Source: Flavobacterium soli DSM 19725 (GTDB taxonomy: Bacteria; Bacteroidota; Bacteroidia; Flavobacteriales; Flavobacteriaceae). From it: DNA of 64,000 nucleotides. Below are positions 7,149 to 17,776 of this stretch, in pieces. Positions within the stretch are counted from its first letter, which is position 1. The number at the start of each line of letters is the position of its first letter. A program made the translations under genes and the position numbers. The DNA lies in NCBI RefSeq assembly GCF_000422705.1, contig NZ_KE383907.1:62001-126000 (forward strand), given 5' to 3'. The notes beneath the pieces are model-generated. The model saw only the letters and a program-made list of their open reading frames with translations, made no database searches and was not told the DNA's origin.

Positions 7149-8162
7149 ATGACAGAGGGGAACTTCGTAGATTACGTTAAGATATATGTTTCATCCGGAA
7201 AAGGAGGGAAAGGTTCAACGCATTTGCATAGAGAGAAATTTATTGAAAAAGGTGGTCCAGATGGTGGAGATGGTGGTCGTGGTGGTCACGTTTATTTGGT
7301 TGGAAACAAAAGTTTGTGGACGTTATTTCACTTGAAATTCGCCCGACATATCAAAGCTGGTCACGGTGGTGATGGTGGTGGCGATAGAAGTACAGGTCAC
7401 GACGGAGAAGATAAATTTATCGAAGTGCCATTGGGGACTGTGGTTCGCGACAAGGAAACGAATGAAATTTTATTTGAAATTACCGAACACGGCGAGAAAA
7501 GAATTGTAGCTCAAGGTGGGAAAGGTGGTTTGGGGAACTGGCATTTTAGAAGTTCGACGAACCAAACACCAAGATATGCACAACCTGGAATGCCTTCTAT
7601 TGAGATGGATATGATTTTGGAATTGAAAGTCTTGGCAGATGTTGGTTTGGTTGGTTTCCCAAACGCTGGAAAATCTACTTTGCTGTCGGTTCTAACTTCT
7701 GCAAAACCAAAAATTGCCGATTATCCGTTTACAACCTTGAAACCGAATTTAGGAATTGTGGCCTATCGTGATTATCAATCGTTTGTGATTGCCGATATTC
7801 CTGGAATTATTGAAGGTGCTGCCGAAGGAAAAGGTCTTGGACATTATTTCTTGCGTCACATCGAAAGAAATTCAACTTTGTTGTTTTTAGTTCCTGTTGA
7901 TACTCCGGATATTAAGGCAGAATATGATATCTTGGTAAACGAATTGACAAAATATAATCCTGAAATGCTCGATAAGGAGCGAATGCTGGTGATTTCAAAA
8001 TGTGACATGCTCGATGACGAGTTGAAAGCTGAATTGAAAACACAGTTGGATAAGGATTTTAAGGATATTCCGTATATGTTTATCTCCTCGGTTGCCCAGC
8101 AAGGGTTGACGGAATTGAAAGATAAATTATGGAAAATGTTGAATGAAGAAAACAACCAATAA
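7149..8162 (+). CDS. obg: GTPase Obg/CgtA
   Basis: The product is 337 residues. It is a large-subunit ribosome-assembly GTPase also tied to stringent and stress responses. The glycine-rich Obg fold occupies residues 1-160 with runs such as [14 protein letters not shown]. The G domain has G1 GFPNAGKST (169-177), switch residues YPFTTLKP, G3 DIPG (216-219) and G4 SKCD. There is no OCT C-terminal extension, as in many short Obg proteins. It is followed within 2 bases by the small secreted-protein gene at 8164, so the two are probably co-transcribed. Confidence 0.96.
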
Positions 8163-8877: not shown

Positions 8878-11028
8878 ATGAAGAAAATTATTTTATTCCT
8901 TACCCTTTCGTTAGTGGCTCTTCCAGCCAGTATGAAGGCAAATGAGGGAATGTGGTTCCTGATGTTTATTGAAAGATTGAACCATAGGGATATGGAAAAA
9001 ATGGGACTGCAACTAACTGCAGAAGAAATTTATAGTATTAACAACCACAGTTTGAAGGATGCAATTGTTCAATTTAATGGTGGTTGTACGGCTGAAATCG
9101 TGTCGAAAGATGGTTTGGTTTTAACGAATCACCACTGTGGATATGATGCTATCGCTGAACTTTCTACTGAAGAAAAAAATTATTTAAAGAATGGTTTTTG
9201 GGCAGCTGACAGAAAAGCTGAGATGAAGCCAAAATCATTGTATGTTCGTTTCTTTGTTCGTATGGATGATGTTTCGAAAAGAATTTTGGGTGTTGTGAAC
9301 GACCAGATGACGGAGTTGGAACGCGAAAAAGCAATCAATCAAGAGATTGCAAAAATTCAGAAAGAGAATGATGAAGGCGGAAAATATACTGTTTCTGTTC
9401 GTCCGTTTTTTCAAGGAAATGAGTACTACTATTTCGTGTACCAAGATTATAAAGACGTTCGATTGGTAGGTACTCCTCCTGAAAGTGTTGGAAAATTTGG
9501 TGGTGACACGGATAACTGGGAGTGGCCACGTCATACAGGGGATTTCTCGATGTTTAGAGTCTATGCCGATGCGAGCGGAAATCCTGCTGAATATTCTACT
9601 GATAATGTGCCGTTGAAACCAAAACACCATTTGCCCGTTAGCTTGAAAGGTGTGAAGGAAAATGATTTTGCTATGATTCTGGGTTATCCTGGAAGAACCA
9701 ACCGCTGGATGCCAGCTGGCGGAATAGATCAGAACGTGAAGTATGCTTATCCTGCATGGGTTGAAGGAGCAAAAACAGGTATGGATGTGATGAAAAAGTA
9801 TATGGACAAGGACGAAAAAGTAAACTTGATGTATGCTTCAAAATATGCTTCGACAGCGAATTACTGGAAAAACCGTCAAGGAATGATCGATGCTTTGTCG
9901 AAATTTGGAACTGCAAAAACGAAGGCTGCACAAGAAGCTAAGTTTGAAAAATGGGCCAATAAAAAAGCTAACAAGGCAAAATATGGTAACGTAGTTTCGA
10001 CTATCAACAACTATTATAACACTACAAATGTAAAATCAGGACATGATAGCTATTTGCAACAATTGATGAGAACGGCAACTTTAGGGATGCTTCCAGCTAA
10101 CTTAGGAACCGGATTACTGGCTTATCAAAAGGAAAATGACGCTAAGAAAGCCGAAATGCTTCCTAGAATCGAAGCTGCATTAGATGCTTATTATGGAGAA
10201 TTTTATGCTCCTTTGGAAAAAGACGTTTTGATTGCCCAACTGAATTTATACAGCTCGAAAGGTGCTGCTTTTGGTTTGCCTACTTACATTGCACAATTGA
10301 AAAAAGCAAACAATGGTGACTTTACAAATGACATCAATGAGGCTTTCGCCAAAAGTATCTTTGCTTCGAGAGCGGCAGTTGAGGCTTTCATGAAAGACCC
10401 AAAACCTGAACTAATCACGAATGATCCTTTGTACTTGATTTCTACTGATCTGCAAACGAAAATGAGAGCCAAATCAGACGAACTTGCCAAGATGGAAAAC
10501 GATTTTGGTAGATCATACCGTTTGATGGTGGAAGGTTTACGTGAGTCTAAATTGAATGCGATCGAATATCCAGATGCAAATTCAACTCTTCGTTTGACAT
10601 ACGGAAAAGTTAGAGCTTTGCCAGCTGATAAACGTAACGATGCTAAGATTAACAACTATACCACAATGGATGGAATGGTGAAAAAATATGTTCCAGGTGA
10701 CGACGAATTTGACATGCCAAAGAAAATTGTGCAAATGAACGAAGCTAGAGATTATGGTCAATATGCAGATCCTGCAGGTTATATGCCTGTTAACTTCTTG
10801 ACTGATAACGATATCACAGGAGGGAACTCAGGTTCGCCAGTATTGAACGGAAAAGGAGAATTGATCGGTTTGGCATTTGATGGAAATATCGAAGCAATGG
10901 CGGGAGATGTAATCTTCGATCCAAATTTGCAAAGAACCATCAACGTTGATATTCGTTATGTGCTTTGGATCATCGATAAATTTTCGGGTGCAAAACATAT
11001 TATTGATGAAATGACGATCATCAAATAA
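8878..11028 (+). CDS. S46 family dipeptidyl peptidase, DPP7-like
   Basis: The product is 716 residues with a signal peptide (residues 1-21), so it is periplasmic. S46 enzymes remove dipeptides from the N-terminus of oligopeptides and feed amino acids to asaccharolytic or proteolytic Bacteroidota. The catalytic His lies in TNHHCGYD (83-90) and the catalytic Ser is Ser651 in GGNSGSPV. Eighteen residues after that Ser is Gly669 (FDGN). Asp/Glu-specific DPP11 enzymes carry Arg at this place, so a DPP7-type preference for hydrophobic P1 residues is inferred. The gene converges on the macroglobulin gene and shares a bidirectional terminator with it. Confidence 0.93.
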   Translation: MKKIILFLTLSLVALPASMKANEGMWFLMFIERLNHRDMEKMGLQLTAEEIYSINNHSLKDAIVQFNGGCTAEIVSKDGLVLTNHHCGYDAIAELSTEEKNYLKNGFWAADRKAEMKPKSLYVRFFVRMDDVSKRILGVVNDQMTELEREKAINQEIAKIQKENDEGGKYTVSVRPFFQGNEYYYFVYQDYKDVRLVGTPPESVGKFGGDTDNWEWPRHTGDFSMFRVYADASGNPAEYSTDNVPLKPKHHLPVSLKGVKENDFAMILGYPGRTNRWMPAGGIDQNVKYAYPAWVEGAKTGMDVMKKYMDKDEKVNLMYASKYASTANYWKNRQGMIDALSKFGTAKTKAAQEAKFEKWANKKANKAKYGNVVSTINNYYNTTNVKSGHDSYLQQLMRTATLGMLPANLGTGLLAYQKENDAKKAEMLPRIEAALDAYYGEFYAPLEKDVLIAQLNLYSSKGAAFGLPTYIAQLKKANNGDFTNDINEAFAKSIFASRAAVEAFMKDPKPELITNDPLYLISTDLQTKMRAKSDELAKMENDFGRSYRLMVEGLRESKLNAIEYPDANSTLRLTYGKVRALPADKRNDAKINNYTTMDGMVKKYVPGDDEFDMPKKIVQMNEARDYGQYADPAGYMPVNFLTDNDITGGNSGSPVLNGKGELIGLAFDGNIEAMAGDVIFDPNLQRTINVDIRYVLWIIDKFSGAKHIIDEMTIIK

Positions 11029-11085: not shown

Positions 11086-14000
11086 TTAGTTTACTTTCAC
11101 TTGGATTGCTTTAGAATGCACACTAAATTCTGGAGCATACATGCTTTGAAGCGTAGATATTCCGTCGTTGAAGTGTCCCACATTGTTGACCCTCACATCA
11201 TATTCTAGCACATAAATTCCTTTTTTAATTTCGTCAAAAAAGAAATGAGTTGCAGCATCTTTCGTGCTTCTGTAATAGCTAAGACGGTCATGCCATTCAT
11301 ATTTCGAAATCACATCAACTGGCTCAAAACAGGAGGCTCGAAGATCTTTTAGATGGACAAATTGCAAATCAGTTTCAGTAGTTACAATCAATCGGATGGT
11401 AATGAGATCGCCCGTTTTCAGGGTTTCTTCGGCTACTTCCACCAATTCATTTCCTTGAGTGGTTTTGATTTTTTTGTATAGATTTTTTGTAACCGATAAG
11501 GCAGCCGTACTGTCGGTTTTGATGTTTTCTAGATCTTCAAAATACTGCCAATACACACCACCATAACCTGGAACTTCGGATTTGTTTTGTATCGAAATTG
11601 TTCCCATATCATTGGTAATTTCATCGGCTTTCCAGTTCATTTTGATATAACCAGTATTTGCTTCTTTCTCTTTTGAGGATAGCTTCTTGGTCAATACTTT
11701 TTCATCACCCATTTTAAAAACCGTGTTGTCTTTGATACTGGTCCAATCATTTCCTTGGAGGAGCAAAGCATAAACGGCTTCGGTGGTTGCTTTTGTGGTA
11801 GGCCAATGGTTGGCCTGTTTGTTTTTGAGCAGCCAGGCTTTCATTTCATTTGCATAGGTCTTGTCTTTTTCTATTTCTGTAAACGCCTCAATTAGCAAAG
11901 CTTGGGTTTCAATAGCCGAATTGTACCAATAATAACCATTGGTATTTTCAATCCAATACATGCCATAATCATCGTTTCGTGCGGAAGTTTCCTTTAGATG
12001 ATTGATGATTTTTTTAGCAAAATCTTGATCCCCAAAACGGTGCATTGTCAAGGCTAAAAGTGCTTTTTTATAAAGTGAATAATGTATCCAATTGGCCTTG
12101 AATTCTACCTTTTGAATAGTGATAATCGAATCAATTTTGGTGGAAACTGGCATTTTTTCTTCGTAAAAACTTCGAGCATAGAGGTAATGCAAATTTGAAT
12201 AAGCATAATAATCGATTTGATGGTTTTTTATCGTATTGTTTTGGATGAATTTTTGATCTAAATAAGGGATCGCCTTGGCTGTGATGGTCTCCAGTTGTGA
12301 AGTTTTTTCGGGAAACATTTTGTTCAAATGACCAAGACCTGCCACAATATGTTGGGTGATGTACACATTCTCGTTTCCGCCGTCAAACCATGAAAATCCG
12401 CCCGTCGGCATTTGTTTTTCGGTTATTTTTTTGAAAGTAGTTTCCATCGATTCTTTCATCGTGTTCAAGTCCATCAACAATGCCAAACGCTTGTTTTTCA
12501 GTTCGTCATTTTCGACGTCAAGCAACCATGGCGTTTCACTCAACACGATGGATTTTAGCTCTTCATTCAGATTTAATTTTGAAGTAGAAGCTGGATTGTT
12601 TTTCCAACTTTCGAATAAAGCCGCTACTTTTGGACTGCTATTGAGCAATTCCGTAGCGATAAAATTGGCATAATATCGTGAGAAAGTTTGTTCTGCACAT
12701 TCATGTTCATATTCCATCAAATAGGGCAGGGATTGCAAAGCAAACCAAACAGGATTTGAAGTATATTCTAACGTAAATTGATGATTTTTAAGGGTTTTAG
12801 ATGTGTTGTTTTTCAGATTCTCAAATACAAATTCTTTCTTCGTGTTACCTTTCATCCAAATCGGAATACTTTCGGTAATCAAAACTTTGTTGGATAAAAC
12901 CGGCAAAATGTTTTCTTCTCCATCACTAAAGTTACCAGATTTGGCTACGATTTTATACTGCAAGCCTTGTAAACCTTCGGGAATGGTTATCGTCCAGTTT
13001 ACCGCCACACTTTCCTTTGGCTTGCAAACGAAGTTTCGGGTGTTTTGGGTGTTGATTGAAATGCTGTCAATCGGTTGCATGTTGGTGGCGTCATAAAGCA
13101 GTAACATTGCGATTCCAGCTTTGGTTTCATTGGTCATGTTTACCACTTTTGCCGAAATGTTTAGGGTATCTTTTTCTCGAACAAATCGTGGCATATTGGT
13201 TTGTACCATCACGTCTTTTTGCGAAATCACATCGGTTTGAAAATAGCCCGATTCTGCTTTCTTGTTATGACCATACAAACGCAATTTCCATCTTGTTAAC
13301 GATTCTGGATTGGTAAATTGGAATGAAAAATGTCCGTTAACATCGGTTTTTAAATGGGGGTAAAAGAATGCGGTTTCGTTGAAGTTGGTTCTAGTTTTTA
13401 CTTGTGCGAGTTCTTTTAGGGTGTTTTTTGTGGTGATAATAACAACGCCATTTGATCCTCGAGAGCCATATAAAGATACAGCTGATTTGTCTATTAATAC
13501 CGATAGCGATTCAATATCACTTTGATTTATATCCATAAGTTCGCCTTCAAAAGGAACACCGTCAATAATAAATAAGGGTTTGTTCTTGTCGGAAACGGAA
13601 GAAGTGCCTCGTATTTGAATGGTTGGATTATTACCGGGCTGTCCTCCAGCAGTAGTCATGCTAACTCCTGATACAGTTCCTATTAGCATTTTTAATGGAG
13701 ATTGATTTTGTTGGATTGCTAAGTCGTCTGCACTAATAACACCTATAGCACCCGTAACAGATTCCCTTCTTTGAGTTCCATAAGCAACCACAATCACTTC
13801 TGAAAGACCCATAGCATAATCTTCTTCCAACACAATTTCATATTTTTTATTTTTAGTAACTGGCATTTCAACCGTCTTCATTCCTATGTATGAAAATTGC
13901 AAGACTTCCCCTTTTGCTACTTCAAGTTCAAAACGACCATCAAAGTCGGTTTGAGTCCCTCGTGTTGTTCCTAAAACTGAAACGGTAACTCCCGGTAGTG

Positions 14001-17000
14001 GCAAGTCGCTTTCGATAACAGTTCCAGAAACCAATTTTGAATTTTGAGGAATTTCAGTTTTGGGTTTTATTTTGTCTAAATATTTTTTGCGTAAATATTC
14101 ATTTTTTGGATTGTTGAAATCAAATCCAAACCAACTAATTTCTGGATTATAAGTGGGTGTTGGAAAAAAGATGCTTGGCATTTCAAAATTGGAAATGCGT
14201 TTAAAACTGTTTGATTCGATGTTAAGATTCGGAAAATTGGGTTGGTTGTACCGTTCATAAAAATCAATATCGGACCAATTTCGTTGTGCAAACTCATCAA
14301 GTGAACTGTCATACATACTGGCCAAAATTTCGGCTTCGAGTTTAGGATTGGTGATCTTAAACGACCAATTTTCTAAACTTCCAGGTTCGATTTTATTGCG
14401 TAAACTGATGACTTCAAAATTTAGTTTTTCTTGTAAGAGCTCTTTTTTTATGGTGTGAGTTCTCACTTCGGTTTTGTTTTCCCAAACGGTAGCAAAATGA
14501 AAATACAAGTTGTTTTGATAGTCTTTTTTCTTTAAGAGTTTAAAAAGGGTTTTACCATTTTGAAGTTGCTGAACTTGTTCGCTTTCAACATATTTTTCAT
14601 CTTCATAAAAACGTGAAGTGACATACAAGTCTGGAATTGCCGATTGAATCAAGATTTCAAAATGGGTTGAATTTGGTTTAGAAACATCTGTAAAAATGAA
14701 CAATTCTTCATTGCCGTTTGGTTGTTGAACTGAATTTAGGGTAATATAATTTTCAACTGTAATTTGATTGTTGTTGCTATCGGTAGCGGTTGTGGTAATT
14801 TTATATCGACCCTTTTCGCTATTTTTCAAGAAATCTAAACTCACGTTTTGACTTTCTTTAGTGTCGAATGCAATTGTTTTTACAGGTATTATTTGTTCCT
14901 CATTATCGGTTGCATCATAGGGTTCATAGGGAAATTGTTGCTCGAATTCGGCACGCGAAATGGTTTGAATTTCTGGAAATTGAAATAATCGGTTTTTTAG
15001 AAACTTTTTCTTCTCAATTTTTTCAATTTTAATTTCACCCGAAGCATTTATGGAATATCCGTTTAAAGTAGTTGCTTGAATCGAAAGTTTATTTTCGTTT
15101 TCTACAAAAAGTTCGGGAAGTACATTCACTTCGAGCGACATAGTTTCTTTACCAACGTTCACGTTTTGTTTAGCCGTTCGGGTTTCCCCATTGGTGTCGG
15201 TCACACTAACATCAATCGTAAAATTAAAAAGTTTGATGCCTTGTGACTTTTTATCTTCGTTTTCGCCCTCTTCCTCTTCCAAATAATTGTCCTCAAAATC
15301 TTCATCTGTCGCCGAAAAACTAATGGTGAAGTTCCCGTTTTCATCGGTAAAGATTTCTTCCATAATATAGTTTGTATCGTCATCATACCCGCCATTTATT
15401 CCTCGAACATATTTTGATATAGAATAAGAAACTTTTGCATTTATCAAATTATTTCCTGCCAAAGCCTTAGCATTTCCTCGAATTTTGATCGAATCGCCAA
15501 TGGTGTAATTTTCCTTGATTTGATCAAATTTTACTTCAAATGTAGGACGCTTGTATTCTTCAACTTGAAACGTAAACTTTTCATCACTATAATTGATTCG
15601 GTCCCAAAAACGGTGTTCTTCTTCTTTTTTGTCATAATAGTTGCTGTCGTTTTCATAATCATCTCCTTCATCAACCGTCAAAGTAAACTGTCCTGTCAAG
15701 GTGTTTTTTGGCAAATCAAACTCACCCGAAAACGATCCGAATTCATTGGTTTGAACATCAAATTCGTTCAATACCGATGCATTCACATCTTCGATCGTGA
15801 CATGAACGGTCACAAATGGAACCACGCTTTTTTCTTTGTCGAGCTTCTTAACCAGAATACCTTTGTAGAACACTTTTTGTCCAGGACGGTAAATCGCGCG
15901 GTCGAAATACACCATCGCTTTGGCTTCGTAGTTTTCATAATCAAGCTTCTCTTCATCACTGTCGTAACGAAAAGCCCTATCATAATAGGATCGAAGCGTG
16001 TCGTTGCCTTTCGACACAATAATAAAGTTGTCATATCTTTTATTTTCTAGACGTTCCCTGATCTTGAACGAAGCTTTTCCAACTGTATTGGTTTGTGTTT
16101 TTTCCTGATCGTTTTTGATTTCAGCATTCGCTATCGGTTGTCCAGTTTTTCTATTCAGGACTTGAAACGTGTTGAATTTTGCATCTCGGTCGGTAACCAC
16201 ACTAAAGTTTGAAACCGTTATTTGGTCATACGTAAAAGCATTATTTTCCGGGTCATTTGGTGTTTCTATAAATATCAAATAATTCCCGATATCCATTTTC
16301 TTCAATAAGATTTCTGTCGAATATTCAAAATGATCACCTTTTTCCGGTAATTTTTGAGTGTATGTTTTTACAGGAATATTTTTTATTTTAAAATCTAAAA
16401 ACAGCGAATCTTTGTTGATGTTTCTTCGACTTTCGTCGTAATAGTTATAGGTGTTGTCGAACCACTCATTGTATTTTACAGGAAGTTTATAATAACTGAT
16501 GGTAACCGAATCAACATTTCGAAAATGCACCAAAGCTCGCGTGTTTTCATTTGGATATAACAGCTTTTGAAAGTTGATGCTAAGTGTTTTTTTCAAAATA
16601 TTGTTTTTAACGACTTCGGATTCATACAAAGCATTCGGATTGATTTTTATCGTTAAAATAGTATCAATCAAAGCCAAAGCTTTTTGATGATAATTGATTT
16701 TTGACTTCTTTGTAGCTTCTTGCATATAAACTTCTGCTCGATCGGCTCGAAGCTGCTGTTTCAAAAATAGTGAAGCAGTTTTGAGTTCTAAAGCTTGGAT
16801 GCTTTCTTGGTATAAATCTTCATCTTCATAAATAGAATGTATGTCTTGAAGTCGTTCATAATAAGCCCAATCTGCCTTTTCAGGATTTTTTTCTAGATAG
16901 TATCGTTCATTATTTTGAAGCAATTTCAAATATTTTTTTAAGTTTTCATCTGTCAGTTTTTCAATTTTTAGTTGGTCGAAAACTTTTGAATCTTGGTAAA

Positions 17001-17655
17001 ATATTTGATAAAGAGCTTTGCTGTCGGGATTGTTTCTGTAGTTCCAAGACGCTATTTTTGATTTGTAAAATTTTAAATTTTTATCAATCAAAAAATCATA
17101 AAGGGAGAAGTTTTTACCATCAGTATAAGCGGGAATTTCAAAAATTTCTTTGTAGGTTGTGATAGGAGTTTCGCGTAAAAGCGTTTCGTTTTTCATTACT
17201 TCTTCAAACGCTTTTTCTATGTTTTCATCAAAATCTTTCGCTGTCCAGGTTAGAAAATCATTGCTTTTTTGGTTTTTTAAATCTGTTCTTTTATTGATAA
17301 TATACCTATGACTTGATTGATACTTTTCAAGAATATCAGCATAGAGGTAATTCAAAATTGCTTTCGAAACAGGTTTTGCCTCCTTAATCTCGTTTTTGAG
17401 ATTGTTGATGATGGTGGTTTGAGCTTTCTCGTCAAAAACCTGCTCAAACTTCGAGAGGTAGAAAAAGCACTTGATGATTTGTGGTTCATCCTTTTTTTTC
17501 TTGGCCTTTTTATAAATCGATTGCACTTCTTCTTGAGCCGATTTTATTTGCCCATCAAGCTCAAATTGATAGACAGTCTTCCAATTTTTATCAAAATCTT
17601 GGGCATAGAAGATAGTCGAAAATAACAACAGCGCGAGTAAGTATATTTTTTTCAT
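11086..17655 (-). CDS. Alpha-2-macroglobulin family protein with inserted SusC-like regulatory and TonB-plug module
   Basis: The product is 2189 residues from the ATG at 17655, which opens a signal peptide (MKKIYLLALLLFSTIFYAQ). A longer frame to 17718 is unlikely. The first ~1190 residues are helical and macroglobulin-type beta domains (for example AIYRPGQKVFYKGILV). Residues about 1200-1285 form a carboxypeptidase-regulatory-like domain (SGTVIESDLPLPGVTVSVLG), and about 1275-1412 a TonB plug (PLFIIDGVPFEGEL, SLYGSRGSNGVVIITTKN) with no beta-barrel after it. Macroglobulin sequence then resumes (NETAFFYPHLKTD, PESLTRWKL). The thioester motif CAEQ is intact at Cys1653 (12688-12699), followed by a helical thioester domain and a C-terminal MG8-like domain. 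Such proteins are thought to trap proteases in the periplasm. The insert sits where eukaryotic macroglobulins hold the bait region. No pbpC gene adjoins it. Confidence 0.93.
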   Translation of the reverse strand: MKKIYLLALLLFSTIFYAQDFDKNWKTVYQFELDGQIKSAQEEVQSIYKKAKKKKDEPQIIKCFFYLSKFEQVFDEKAQTTIINNLKNEIKEAKPVSKAILNYLYADILEKYQSSHRYIINKRTDLKNQKSNDFLTWTAKDFDENIEKAFEEVMKNETLLRETPITTYKEIFEIPAYTDGKNFSLYDFLIDKNLKFYKSKIASWNYRNNPDSKALYQIFYQDSKVFDQLKIEKLTDENLKKYLKLLQNNERYYLEKNPEKADWAYYERLQDIHSIYEDEDLYQESIQALELKTASLFLKQQLRADRAEVYMQEATKKSKINYHQKALALIDTILTIKINPNALYESEVVKNNILKKTLSINFQKLLYPNENTRALVHFRNVDSVTISYYKLPVKYNEWFDNTYNYYDESRRNINKDSLFLDFKIKNIPVKTYTQKLPEKGDHFEYSTEILLKKMDIGNYLIFIETPNDPENNAFTYDQITVSNFSVVTDRDAKFNTFQVLNRKTGQPIANAEIKNDQEKTQTNTVGKASFKIRERLENKRYDNFIIVSKGNDTLRSYYDRAFRYDSDEEKLDYENYEAKAMVYFDRAIYRPGQKVFYKGILVKKLDKEKSVVPFVTVHVTIEDVNASVLNEFDVQTNEFGSFSGEFDLPKNTLTGQFTLTVDEGDDYENDSNYYDKKEEEHRFWDRINYSDEKFTFQVEEYKRPTFEVKFDQIKENYTIGDSIKIRGNAKALAGNNLINAKVSYSISKYVRGINGGYDDDTNYIMEEIFTDENGNFTISFSATDEDFEDNYLEEEEGENEDKKSQGIKLFNFTIDVSVTDTNGETRTAKQNVNVGKETMSLEVNVLPELFVENENKLSIQATTLNGYSINASGEIKIEKIEKKKFLKNRLFQFPEIQTISRAEFEQQFPYEPYDATDNEEQIIPVKTIAFDTKESQNVSLDFLKNSEKGRYKITTTATDSNNNQITVENYITLNSVQQPNGNEELFIFTDVSKPNSTHFEILIQSAIPDLYVTSRFYEDEKYVESEQVQQLQNGKTLFKLLKKKDYQNNLYFHFATVWENKTEVRTHTIKKELLQEKLNFEVISLRNKIEPGSLENWSFKITNPKLEAEILASMYDSSLDEFAQRNWSDIDFYERYNQPNFPNLNIESNSFKRISNFEMPSIFFPTPTYNPEISWFGFDFNNPKNEYLRKKYLDKIKPKTEIPQNSKLVSGTVIESDLPLPGVTVSVLGTTRGTQTDFDGRFELEVAKGEVLQFSYIGMKTVEMPVTKNKKYEIVLEEDYAMGLSEVIVVAYGTQRRESVTGAIGVISADDLAIQQNQSPLKMLIGTVSGVSMTTAGGQPGNNPTIQIRGTSSVSDKNKPLFIIDGVPFEGELMDINQSDIESLSVLIDKSAVSLYGSRGSNGVVIITTKNTLKELAQVKTRTNFNETAFFYPHLKTDVNGHFSFQFTNPESLTRWKLRLYGHNKKAESGYFQTDVISQKDVMVQTNMPRFVREKDTLNISAKVVNMTNETKAGIAMLLLYDATNMQPIDSISINTQNTRNFVCKPKESVAVNWTITIPEGLQGLQYKIVAKSGNFSDGEENILPVLSNKVLITESIPIWMKGNTKKEFVFENLKNNTSKTLKNHQFTLEYTSNPVWFALQSLPYLMEYEHECAEQTFSRYYANFIATELLNSSPKVAALFESWKNNPASTSKLNLNEELKSIVLSETPWLLDVENDELKNKRLALLMDLNTMKESMETTFKKITEKQMPTGGFSWFDGGNENVYITQHIVAGLGHLNKMFPEKTSQLETITAKAIPYLDQKFIQNNTIKNHQIDYYAYSNLHYLYARSFYEEKMPVSTKIDSIITIQKVEFKANWIHYSLYKKALLALTMHRFGDQDFAKKIINHLKETSARNDDYGMYWIENTNGYYWYNSAIETQALLIEAFTEIEKDKTYANEMKAWLLKNKQANHWPTTKATTEAVYALLLQGNDWTSIKDNTVFKMGDEKVLTKKLSSKEKEANTGYIKMNWKADEITNDMGTISIQNKSEVPGYGGVYWQYFEDLENIKTDSTAALSVTKNLYKKIKTTQGNELVEVAEETLKTGDLITIRLIVTTETDLQFVHLKDLRASCFEPVDVISKYEWHDRLSYYRSTKDAATHFFFDEIKKGIYVLEYDVRVNNVGHFNDGISTLQSMYAPEFSVHSKAIQVKVN

Positions 17656-17776
17656 AAAAAGGATATTTCTTTTATAGAGTATAGATTTGATAAAAAGGTT
17701 GGAACACTTGTCAAACATTTTCTAAAAATAAATCTTTTCTCTCAGCATTTTCCTATTTTTGAATCAAATTAAGGCT

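Follow-up and report, generated by a model that had tools for sequence, protein, structure and literature searches.

Cleavage of the bait of an alpha-2-macroglobulin (A2M) by a protease is described as leading to loss of chain continuity, retraction of the bait, exposure of the thioester and coupling of the protease (PMC9352918; PMC4498604). Human A2M is reported to be functional when Gly and Ser make up its entire bait (PMC9352918), and the E. coli protein when a portion of the bait is exchanged (PMC9918453). Because both proteins work with altered baits, a foreign module in this segment is plausible. Here we analyzed a macroglobulin gene in a stretch of 64,000 nucleotides from Flavobacterium soli DSM 19725 (assembly GCF_000422705.1, contig NZ_KE383907.1, positions 62,001 to 126,000 of the forward strand; denoted the window). 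Judged from sequence comparisons, the bait segment of this protein carries an insert of SusC origin, which is neither a one-strain fusion nor a single conserved module. Repeated, independent acquisition or overwriting of the bait from SusC genes of the same genome is well supported by trees and nearest-neighbor counts.

The macroglobulin gene is one intact open reading frame (ORF) of 2210 aa on the minus strand (positions 11086-17718), without an internal stop. Its likely start is the Met at 17655, which is residue 22 of this longest ORF; the original prediction, made from the letters of the window, began there, and its residue numbers lie 21 below those used here. It had proposed a complete thioester macroglobulin interrupted by a carboxypeptidase-regulatory-like domain and a TonB plug with no barrel, an architecture that Pfam and NCBIfam bear out; its thioester motif CAEQ at residue 1653 corresponds to residues 1674-1677 (12688-12699). 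The bait segment, delimited by alignment with YfhM, spans residues 1144-1444 (13387-14289) between strand ...YDSSLDEF and ...NETAFF. A disordered linker (residues 1145-1199; 14122-14286) forms its N-terminal side. It is followed by a SusC-type N-terminal extension (NTE; CarbopepD_reg_2; residues 1230-1310; 13789-14031), assigned by Pfam, NCBIfam and comparison of a model with structure 9hfj, by a Ton-box-like segment LSEVIVVAYG (residues 1305-1314; 13777-13806) that aligns with SusC EVVVVGYG, and by a TonB-dependent-receptor plug (Pfam and NCBIfam; residues 1319-1425; 13444-13764), after which the barrel is absent. Directly after the insert comes NETAFFYPHL (residues 1447-1456), and the macroglobulin resumes with the Pfam-assigned A2M domain (PF00207; residues 1449-1533; 13120-13374). 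The Pfam E-values are 1.9e-15 for the CarbopepD_reg_2 family, 4.2e-14 for Plug and 7e-16 for A2M. The NCBIfam model TIGR04056 (SusC/RagA) matches residues 1230-1448 only (E 7.9e-79), with a whole-model score of 266 bits, below the cut-off of 368; since the match stops at model position 221 of 981, having begun at position 3, the insert lacks a barrel. The SusC signature TIGR04057 is recognized with 49.3 bits (cut-off 46.2).

To place the insert relative to a bacterial A2M, a comparison that the original prediction had suggested, a 21-sequence family profile was aligned with E. coli YfhM (E 5.3e-19). The strand LEAEILASMYDSSLD falls over about YfhM residues 890-904, the bait segment over about 909-970 and the SusC-like part over about 930-967; the alignment is gappy across the bait stretch, and the residue-level match there is rough. 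YfhM 909-970 includes the bait R923-L942, which is described as disordered and without density in cleaved ECAM, the E. coli protein (PMC4498604). With hhalign, profile A2 gave the full match to YfhM and profile A4 a 56-column match only. An AlphaFold2 (AF2) model of residues 907-1634 built from 79 sequences reached a mean predicted local distance difference test (pLDDT) score of 75, compared with 32 for single-sequence AF2. In this model beta-sandwich MG-like regions flank the bait on both sides; pLDDT values are 93-95 in the NTE, 34-41 in the linker (blocks of ten), 31-42 in the Ton-box region and 55-87 in the plug. Foldseek matched the model to CD109 (E 8.4e-16), C5, TEP1, A2ML1 and ECAM (5a42, E 3.4e-13). 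Whole-model TM-scores in the rows shown are low (0.11-0.18), as expected if the domain arrangement differs. By VIA-align, model residues 320-400 correspond to the solved SusCdex NTE 9hfj (Z 14.7, root mean square deviation 1.0, 79 residues), residues 541-704 match a C3/C4 domain (Z about 13) and residues 98-707 match TEP1 (4d94, Z 12.9). A phmmer search of the Protein Data Bank with the single protein returned SusC and TonB-dependent transporter (TBDT) chains only, and the family profile was required to reach A2M structures. Together, profile alignment and model support the earlier proposal that the SusC-type module sits at the bait position, where proteases would be expected to cut. On the strength of the model, linker residues 1145-1199 are probably the likeliest place of cleavage.

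With a 1050-aa SusC-like ORF from the same genome (G000:C2:241139) the window insert shares 57% identity, but with the insert of the relative G151 only 45%, although the C-terminal backbones of the two macroglobulins are 75% identical. At the DNA level the window insert matches its SusC partner by only 67% over 396 bases and is thus not a recent conversion. For a systematic comparison, the inserts of 15 genomes were set against 172 SusC modules. Those of the window genome (G000) were collected with the window insert as query (E ≤ 0.001, best 30), those of G151, G178 and G462 with the same query at E ≤ 1e-20, and those of the other 11 genomes with profile A3, among whose members are some of these inserts, at E ≤ 1e-15 or 1e-30; the set covers part of the matches listed (likewise a part for G134 and G470), and modules with <165 profile positions, with stops or of >330 aa were dropped. 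The nearest SusC came from the same genome in 12 of the 15 genomes, where 1.0 would be expected by share (P = 1.6e-13), and in nine genomes it was at least 50% identical. As a control, 51 of the 172 SusC modules have their own nearest SusC in the same genome; per-genome rates give an expectation of 3.35 (P = 4.9e-7).

Trees led to the same picture. Among 52 modules, the inserts of G000 and G151 are each the starred sister of a SusC from their own genome. A larger tree of 63 modules combined the 15 inserts with the best four SusCs of each and the best two own-genome SusCs of each. There the A2M inserts need 15 changes, compared with a shuffled mean of 13.6, so that they do not cluster at all; starred branches alone force 11 changes. 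Seven inserts (G000, G109, G132, G151, G471, G472 and G473) are starred direct sisters of one own-genome SusC, and the G474 insert is the sister of two SusCs from its own genome. In each of the seven sister pairs the SusC partner has the shorter branch and the A2M insert the longer one, a pattern that would fit a transfer from SusC to A2M. Grouping of inserts in one clade was rejected by approximately unbiased (AU) tests for four congeners (p = 0.0027), the window and G151 (0.0117), 21 inserts (0.0022) and 15 inserts (8.9e-5). Five donors compared directly share 37-50% identity, indicating that different SusCs were used, some of them belonging to related SusCs. A drop in identity at the insert was rejected as proof of replacement by itself: the window and L077 inserts are about 33-48% identical per 70-aa bin, and much of the N-terminal half of the two proteins is at 37-55%. 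Because that half is similarly diverged, we relied on the trees and the nearest-neighbor counts.

Three sets of genomes were searched with the 776-residue C-terminal part of the protein at E ≤ 0.001. In the family, sampled with one genome per genus, 69 of 120 gave a match (60 at E < 1e-100, a count that includes the window genome); in the genus the figure was 21 of 61, and in the phylum, where weak paralogues are counted as well, 88 of 296. Within its own 4.0-Mb genome the sole match to this part is the macroglobulin gene itself. The macroglobulin gene is common but often absent. For the homologue set we chose 100 full-gene stretches from the matches listed and the best 80 of 590 named loci, which span Flavobacterium, Algibacter, Winogradskyella, Tenacibaculum, Maribacter and others. 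Removal of seven duplicates and one truncated gene left 173 proteins, including that of the window; they are homologues, not all necessarily orthologues. Some homologues show shorter open frames, such as those of G178 (1611 aa) and G173 (1025 aa). Chance or misassembly, including the joining of two genes that the original prediction had named as a possible source of error, can be dismissed, because half of the family genomes searched match at E < 1e-100, the listed matches are free of stops, the window frame is open throughout, and many of the homologues fetched from other genomes carry the insert at the same place.

The bait segment varies in length from 110 to 371 aa (n = 172) and is the most variable stretch of the protein: in an alignment of 101 proteins, scored in 100-residue bins with gaps counted against the majority, the mean majority frequency is 0.17-0.20 over residues 1201-1400 and 0.32-0.73 elsewhere. 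A SusC-only profile, built from 31 modules of SusC proteins, matched 97 of the 173 baits at an independent E-value (i-E) < 0.01, and in the controls there was no match among 1730 shuffled baits and one among 865 backbone windows. At i-E < 0.1, 40 baits contain a full NTE-plug module, 19 an NTE without the C-terminal half of the plug, 15 that half without an NTE and 33 short fragments; 66 are without SusC signal. Within the genus set, 18 of 19 proteins hold at least part of the module. Two genus homologues, L085 and L086 (baits of 346 and 371 aa), have an extra stretch without identification before the plug part, and only L085 shows a weak NTE match. On a backbone tree built without the bait (FastTree), the full/not-full distinction needs 19 changes, 14 of them forced by starred branches, and all five states need 56. 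The insertion site suggested by the original prediction recurs in many Flavobacteriaceae and is thus no accident of one strain, but what occupies it is not one conserved module; the prediction had not foreseen that many lineages acquired or overwrote the insert independently, each from SusC genes of its own genome.

The baits retain SusC sequence unevenly. Across 39 full modules, the NTE scores 0.80-0.97 of the SusC consensus score in windows 6-60, with 0.64 in the first window and 0.39-0.59 at the NTE end. The Ton-box windows reach 0.64-0.71 and the YVIDG and YGSRGANGV windows 0.81-0.87; the N-terminal part of the plug, the loop before the DIES motif and the NPNDIES/VLKDAS windows drop to -0.45 to 0.53. 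A different selection is seen in the short baits (n = 98). The best Ton-box window is present in 53 of them, RVAGV in 34 and IRG in 24, where 1 is expected at the threshold; backbone controls for these three windows gave 0.3-2.3 of 98, although some other windows, mainly in the NTE part, are commoner in controls than in baits (up to 19.4 of 98). The NTE, YVIDG and YGSRGANGV windows printed occur in 0-4 of the 98. Moreover, the order of the motifs is mostly not that of SusC. Among 34 short baits with two or three motifs, 29 show a non-SusC order (with T for Ton box, V for RVAGV and I for IRG: IVT 9, VT 9, IT 7, VIT 2, VTI 1, IV 1) and five the SusC order (TV 4, TVI 1); in L123, L161, L168 and L287 the V and I matches fall within six residues of each other and possibly represent a single stretch. 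The reversed series IRG, RVAGV and Ton box is found at about 63-64, 77-78 and 92-106 residues from the bait start in L102, L117, L275 and L281, which represent several genera. Such permuted orders could arise by stepwise duplication and deletion or by serial small captures.

The Ton-box stretch itself was followed in 23 close pairs, chosen for having the motif in both members. It is 50% identical, compared with 40% for the rest of the bait (higher in 16 of 23 pairs, P = 0.003) and 58% for the part before the Ton box. Clear purifying selection on the Ton box was considered and set aside, as the comparison offers mild support at best. The Maribacter relatives L305 and L314, with 96% backbone identity, differ exactly in the Ton-box stretch, and their flanking DNA is nearly identical. 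In SusC Bt1763 the Ton box reads VDEVVV (PMC7782687). The plug stretch just after the Ton box is described as the first to unfold when TonB pulls on TBDTs (PMC11658791, PMC5413942), and by analogy the corresponding stretch of SusC may behave likewise, a step that is our own.

How might such a protein work? We tentatively favor, at somewhat short of an even chance, a periplasmic thioester protease trap for whose bait the SusC receptors of the same cell supply NTE, Ton box and plug, perhaps as a decoy. By extension from the macroglobulin family, a protease cutting the exposed bait would abolish chain continuity, the cut bait would retract from its channel, and the thioester, now exposed, would couple to the protease. 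Since macroglobulin baits tolerate very different sequences, SusC modules could enter, and the multi-copy, exported SusC genes would supply them by ectopic recombination. With less certainty, likeness to the cleavable, periplasm-facing region of the receptors may be the reason why the SusC-like bait is retained and renewed: a protease able to damage SusC receptors would then spring the trap. In favor of this decoy step, which we infer, are the three motifs retained by short baits and the early unfolding described for the plug stretch behind the Ton box. Its most specific version, in which recurrent recombination with the SusC repertoire of the genome keeps the bait SusC-like, the trap catches proteases that attack the periplasmic face of the receptors and the SusC family serves as a sequence reservoir, is possible but held with more reserve.

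Several observations weigh against a SusC-baited trap of this kind. No match to the macroglobulin gene was obtained in 40 of the 61 genomes of the genus. A SusC-like bait is evidently not required, because the profile finds no signal in 66 of the 173 homologues and 31 of the 98 short baits lack all three motifs. In full modules NTE and plug core stay close to the SusC consensus, which points to folded domains more than to a loose segment open to cleavage, and conservation of the Ton-box stretch in short baits exceeds that of the remaining bait only mildly. As to the source of the sequence, three of the 15 genomes (G462, G113 and G430) lack an own-genome nearest SusC, three more (G134, G470 and G475) have their own SusC as the nearest, yet at only 39-45% identity, and no DNA-level donor for the recently changed L314 bait was found in the L314 genome. 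Some of these points fit a close rival, which we regard as possible though rather doubtful: the bait needs length and exposure only, any exportable sequence may come to lie in it, and SusC modules, whose genes are numerous, land in it often and are then eroded by deletion and replaced, leaving SusC likeness without benefit. The activity of human A2M with an all-Gly/Ser bait (PMC9352918), the baits devoid of profile signal, the high turnover of bait states on the backbone tree and the mild conservation of the Ton box are all compatible with such neutral filling. Plain erosion, however, predicts random contiguous pieces in SusC order. Instead, three motifs are kept far above the expected single occurrence, equally strong SusC motifs are nearly absent from short baits, 29 of 34 baits with several motifs depart from the SusC order, and in full modules NTE and plug core stay near the consensus as other plug parts relax.

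The original prediction had raised a possible link to an outer-membrane partner or to TonB. In a tether of the latter kind, the Ton box of the bait would bind TonB, the TonB-ExbBD machine would hold or sense the trap, and bait cleavage would release it. The Ton box is indeed the SusC motif most often kept in short baits, the L and the second V of the LDEVVV core are kept in the 39 full modules, the Ton-box region is disordered in the AF2 model, and the protein, having no lipobox, has no evident lipid anchor. Nevertheless, RVAGV and IRG, for which we know of no TonB binding, are kept too, the Ton box erodes even between L305 and L314, and its best window is missing from 45 of the 98 short baits; we consider a tether unlikely. 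Least probable by far is one ancient capture of a SusC module that was inherited and has diverged since. The identical insertion site in all proteins and the presence of at least part of the module in nearly the whole genus set would agree with it, but the AU tests (p 8.9e-5 to 0.0117) refute its simple form, and the inserts pair with SusCs of their own genome. A variant in which the module was captured once, long ago, and has since been converted repeatedly by SusC genes would fit.

Residues 22-40 form a likely signal peptide, MKKIYLLALLLFSTIFYAQ (17599-17655); there is no Cys in this region, and the protein thus differs from ECAM-type lipoprotein A2Ms, which are recognized by a lipobox. A simple pattern scan classified the signal peptides of 159 of the 173 homologues as signal peptidase I-like, 13 as unclear and one as lipobox-like. 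An MG2 domain (PF01835; residues 601-688; 15655-15918), the A2M domain and the C-terminal MG domain bMG10 (residues 2074-2197, including QSMYAPEF; 11128-11499) are present in this order, all over Pfam cut-offs. The C, E and Q of the thioester are nearly invariant in 21 sequences, and CxEQ is found in 155 of the 173 homologues. By the features testable from sequence and model, the window protein is a member of the alpha-2-macroglobulin superfamily.

Directly beside the macroglobulin gene, with 3' ends facing, lies an S46 peptidase gene (PF10459, 5.7e-226; 8878-11028, plus strand). An S46-like motif occurs in 20 of 172 homologue loci, and those of known genus belong to the genus of the window or to named Flavobacterium. 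Nearby is also an ObgE-like GTPase (7149-8162, plus strand); because an ObgE-like motif is found in 62 of the 172 loci, each of about 9-16 kb, the macroglobulin occupies a partly conserved chromosomal place. Elsewhere in the same genome, at locus L200 (C10, about 106153-106865), neighboring ORFs of 227 and 322 aa hold an NTE-like domain and an end resembling the C-terminal half of a plug without a barrel (LYVING...AAYGEKGKKGVVIISTKNG); as read from these ORFs, barrel-less plug pieces also exist outside macroglobulins. At locus L179 (C5:242104) of this genome, a SusC-like gene is split between two frames: a 399-aa ORF comes first, and the 349-aa ORF behind it, which runs into the locus end, resembles the barrel part; the split is probably due to a frameshift or a sequencing error.

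No description of a SusC-derived macroglobulin bait or of repeated same-genome capture was found in the open-access literature, which was the scope of the search, subscription papers lying mostly outside it; as far as this literature shows, both are new. A preprint on CAGE (PMC12485934) is unrelated. If the bait is rebuilt over and over from SusC, it would hint at the protein under threat and hence at the proteases involved, which turns the matter into a testable question. If true, recombination with a large gene family unrelated to it would be diversifying the sensing segment of a bacterial defence protein. In practical terms, a plug or SusC annotation in databases can mark a protease trap instead of a transporter.

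With type I bacterial A2Ms, such as E. coli YfhM/ECAM and Salmonella SaA2M, the window protein has in common the CxEQ motif, the MG domains, bMG10 and the place of the bait segment. In contrast to ECAM, which is described as a lipoprotein (PMC3328433), it is without a lipobox; its gene is directly flanked by those of the S46 peptidase and a tetratricopeptide repeat (TPR) protein, whereas the E. coli neighbor is pbpC; and the baits of its family, 110-371 aa long, often contain SusC-derived sequence. With SusC/RagA TonB-linked proteins (TIGR04056) it shares the NTE, including the fold seen in 9hfj, the Ton box, the plug and the TIGR04057 signature, but its module is without a barrel, is embedded in a macroglobulin and is relaxed at many plug positions. 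Plant integrated-decoy immune receptors are defence proteins that carry a copy of an attacked host protein. The analogy to them is one of logic only, as the proteins are unrelated and the attacker is not known for the trap of the window. Complement C3, C4 and C5 belong to the same superfamily as the window protein. Their anaphylatoxin (ANA) domain is one fixed domain, whereas the module of the window family comes from a transporter family and has been replaced repeatedly. In complement factors the ANA domain is described as the region set aside for cleavage, the role that the bait has in the inhibitors (PMC9352918), and a folded domain in the part of the chain held by the bait therefore has a precedent.

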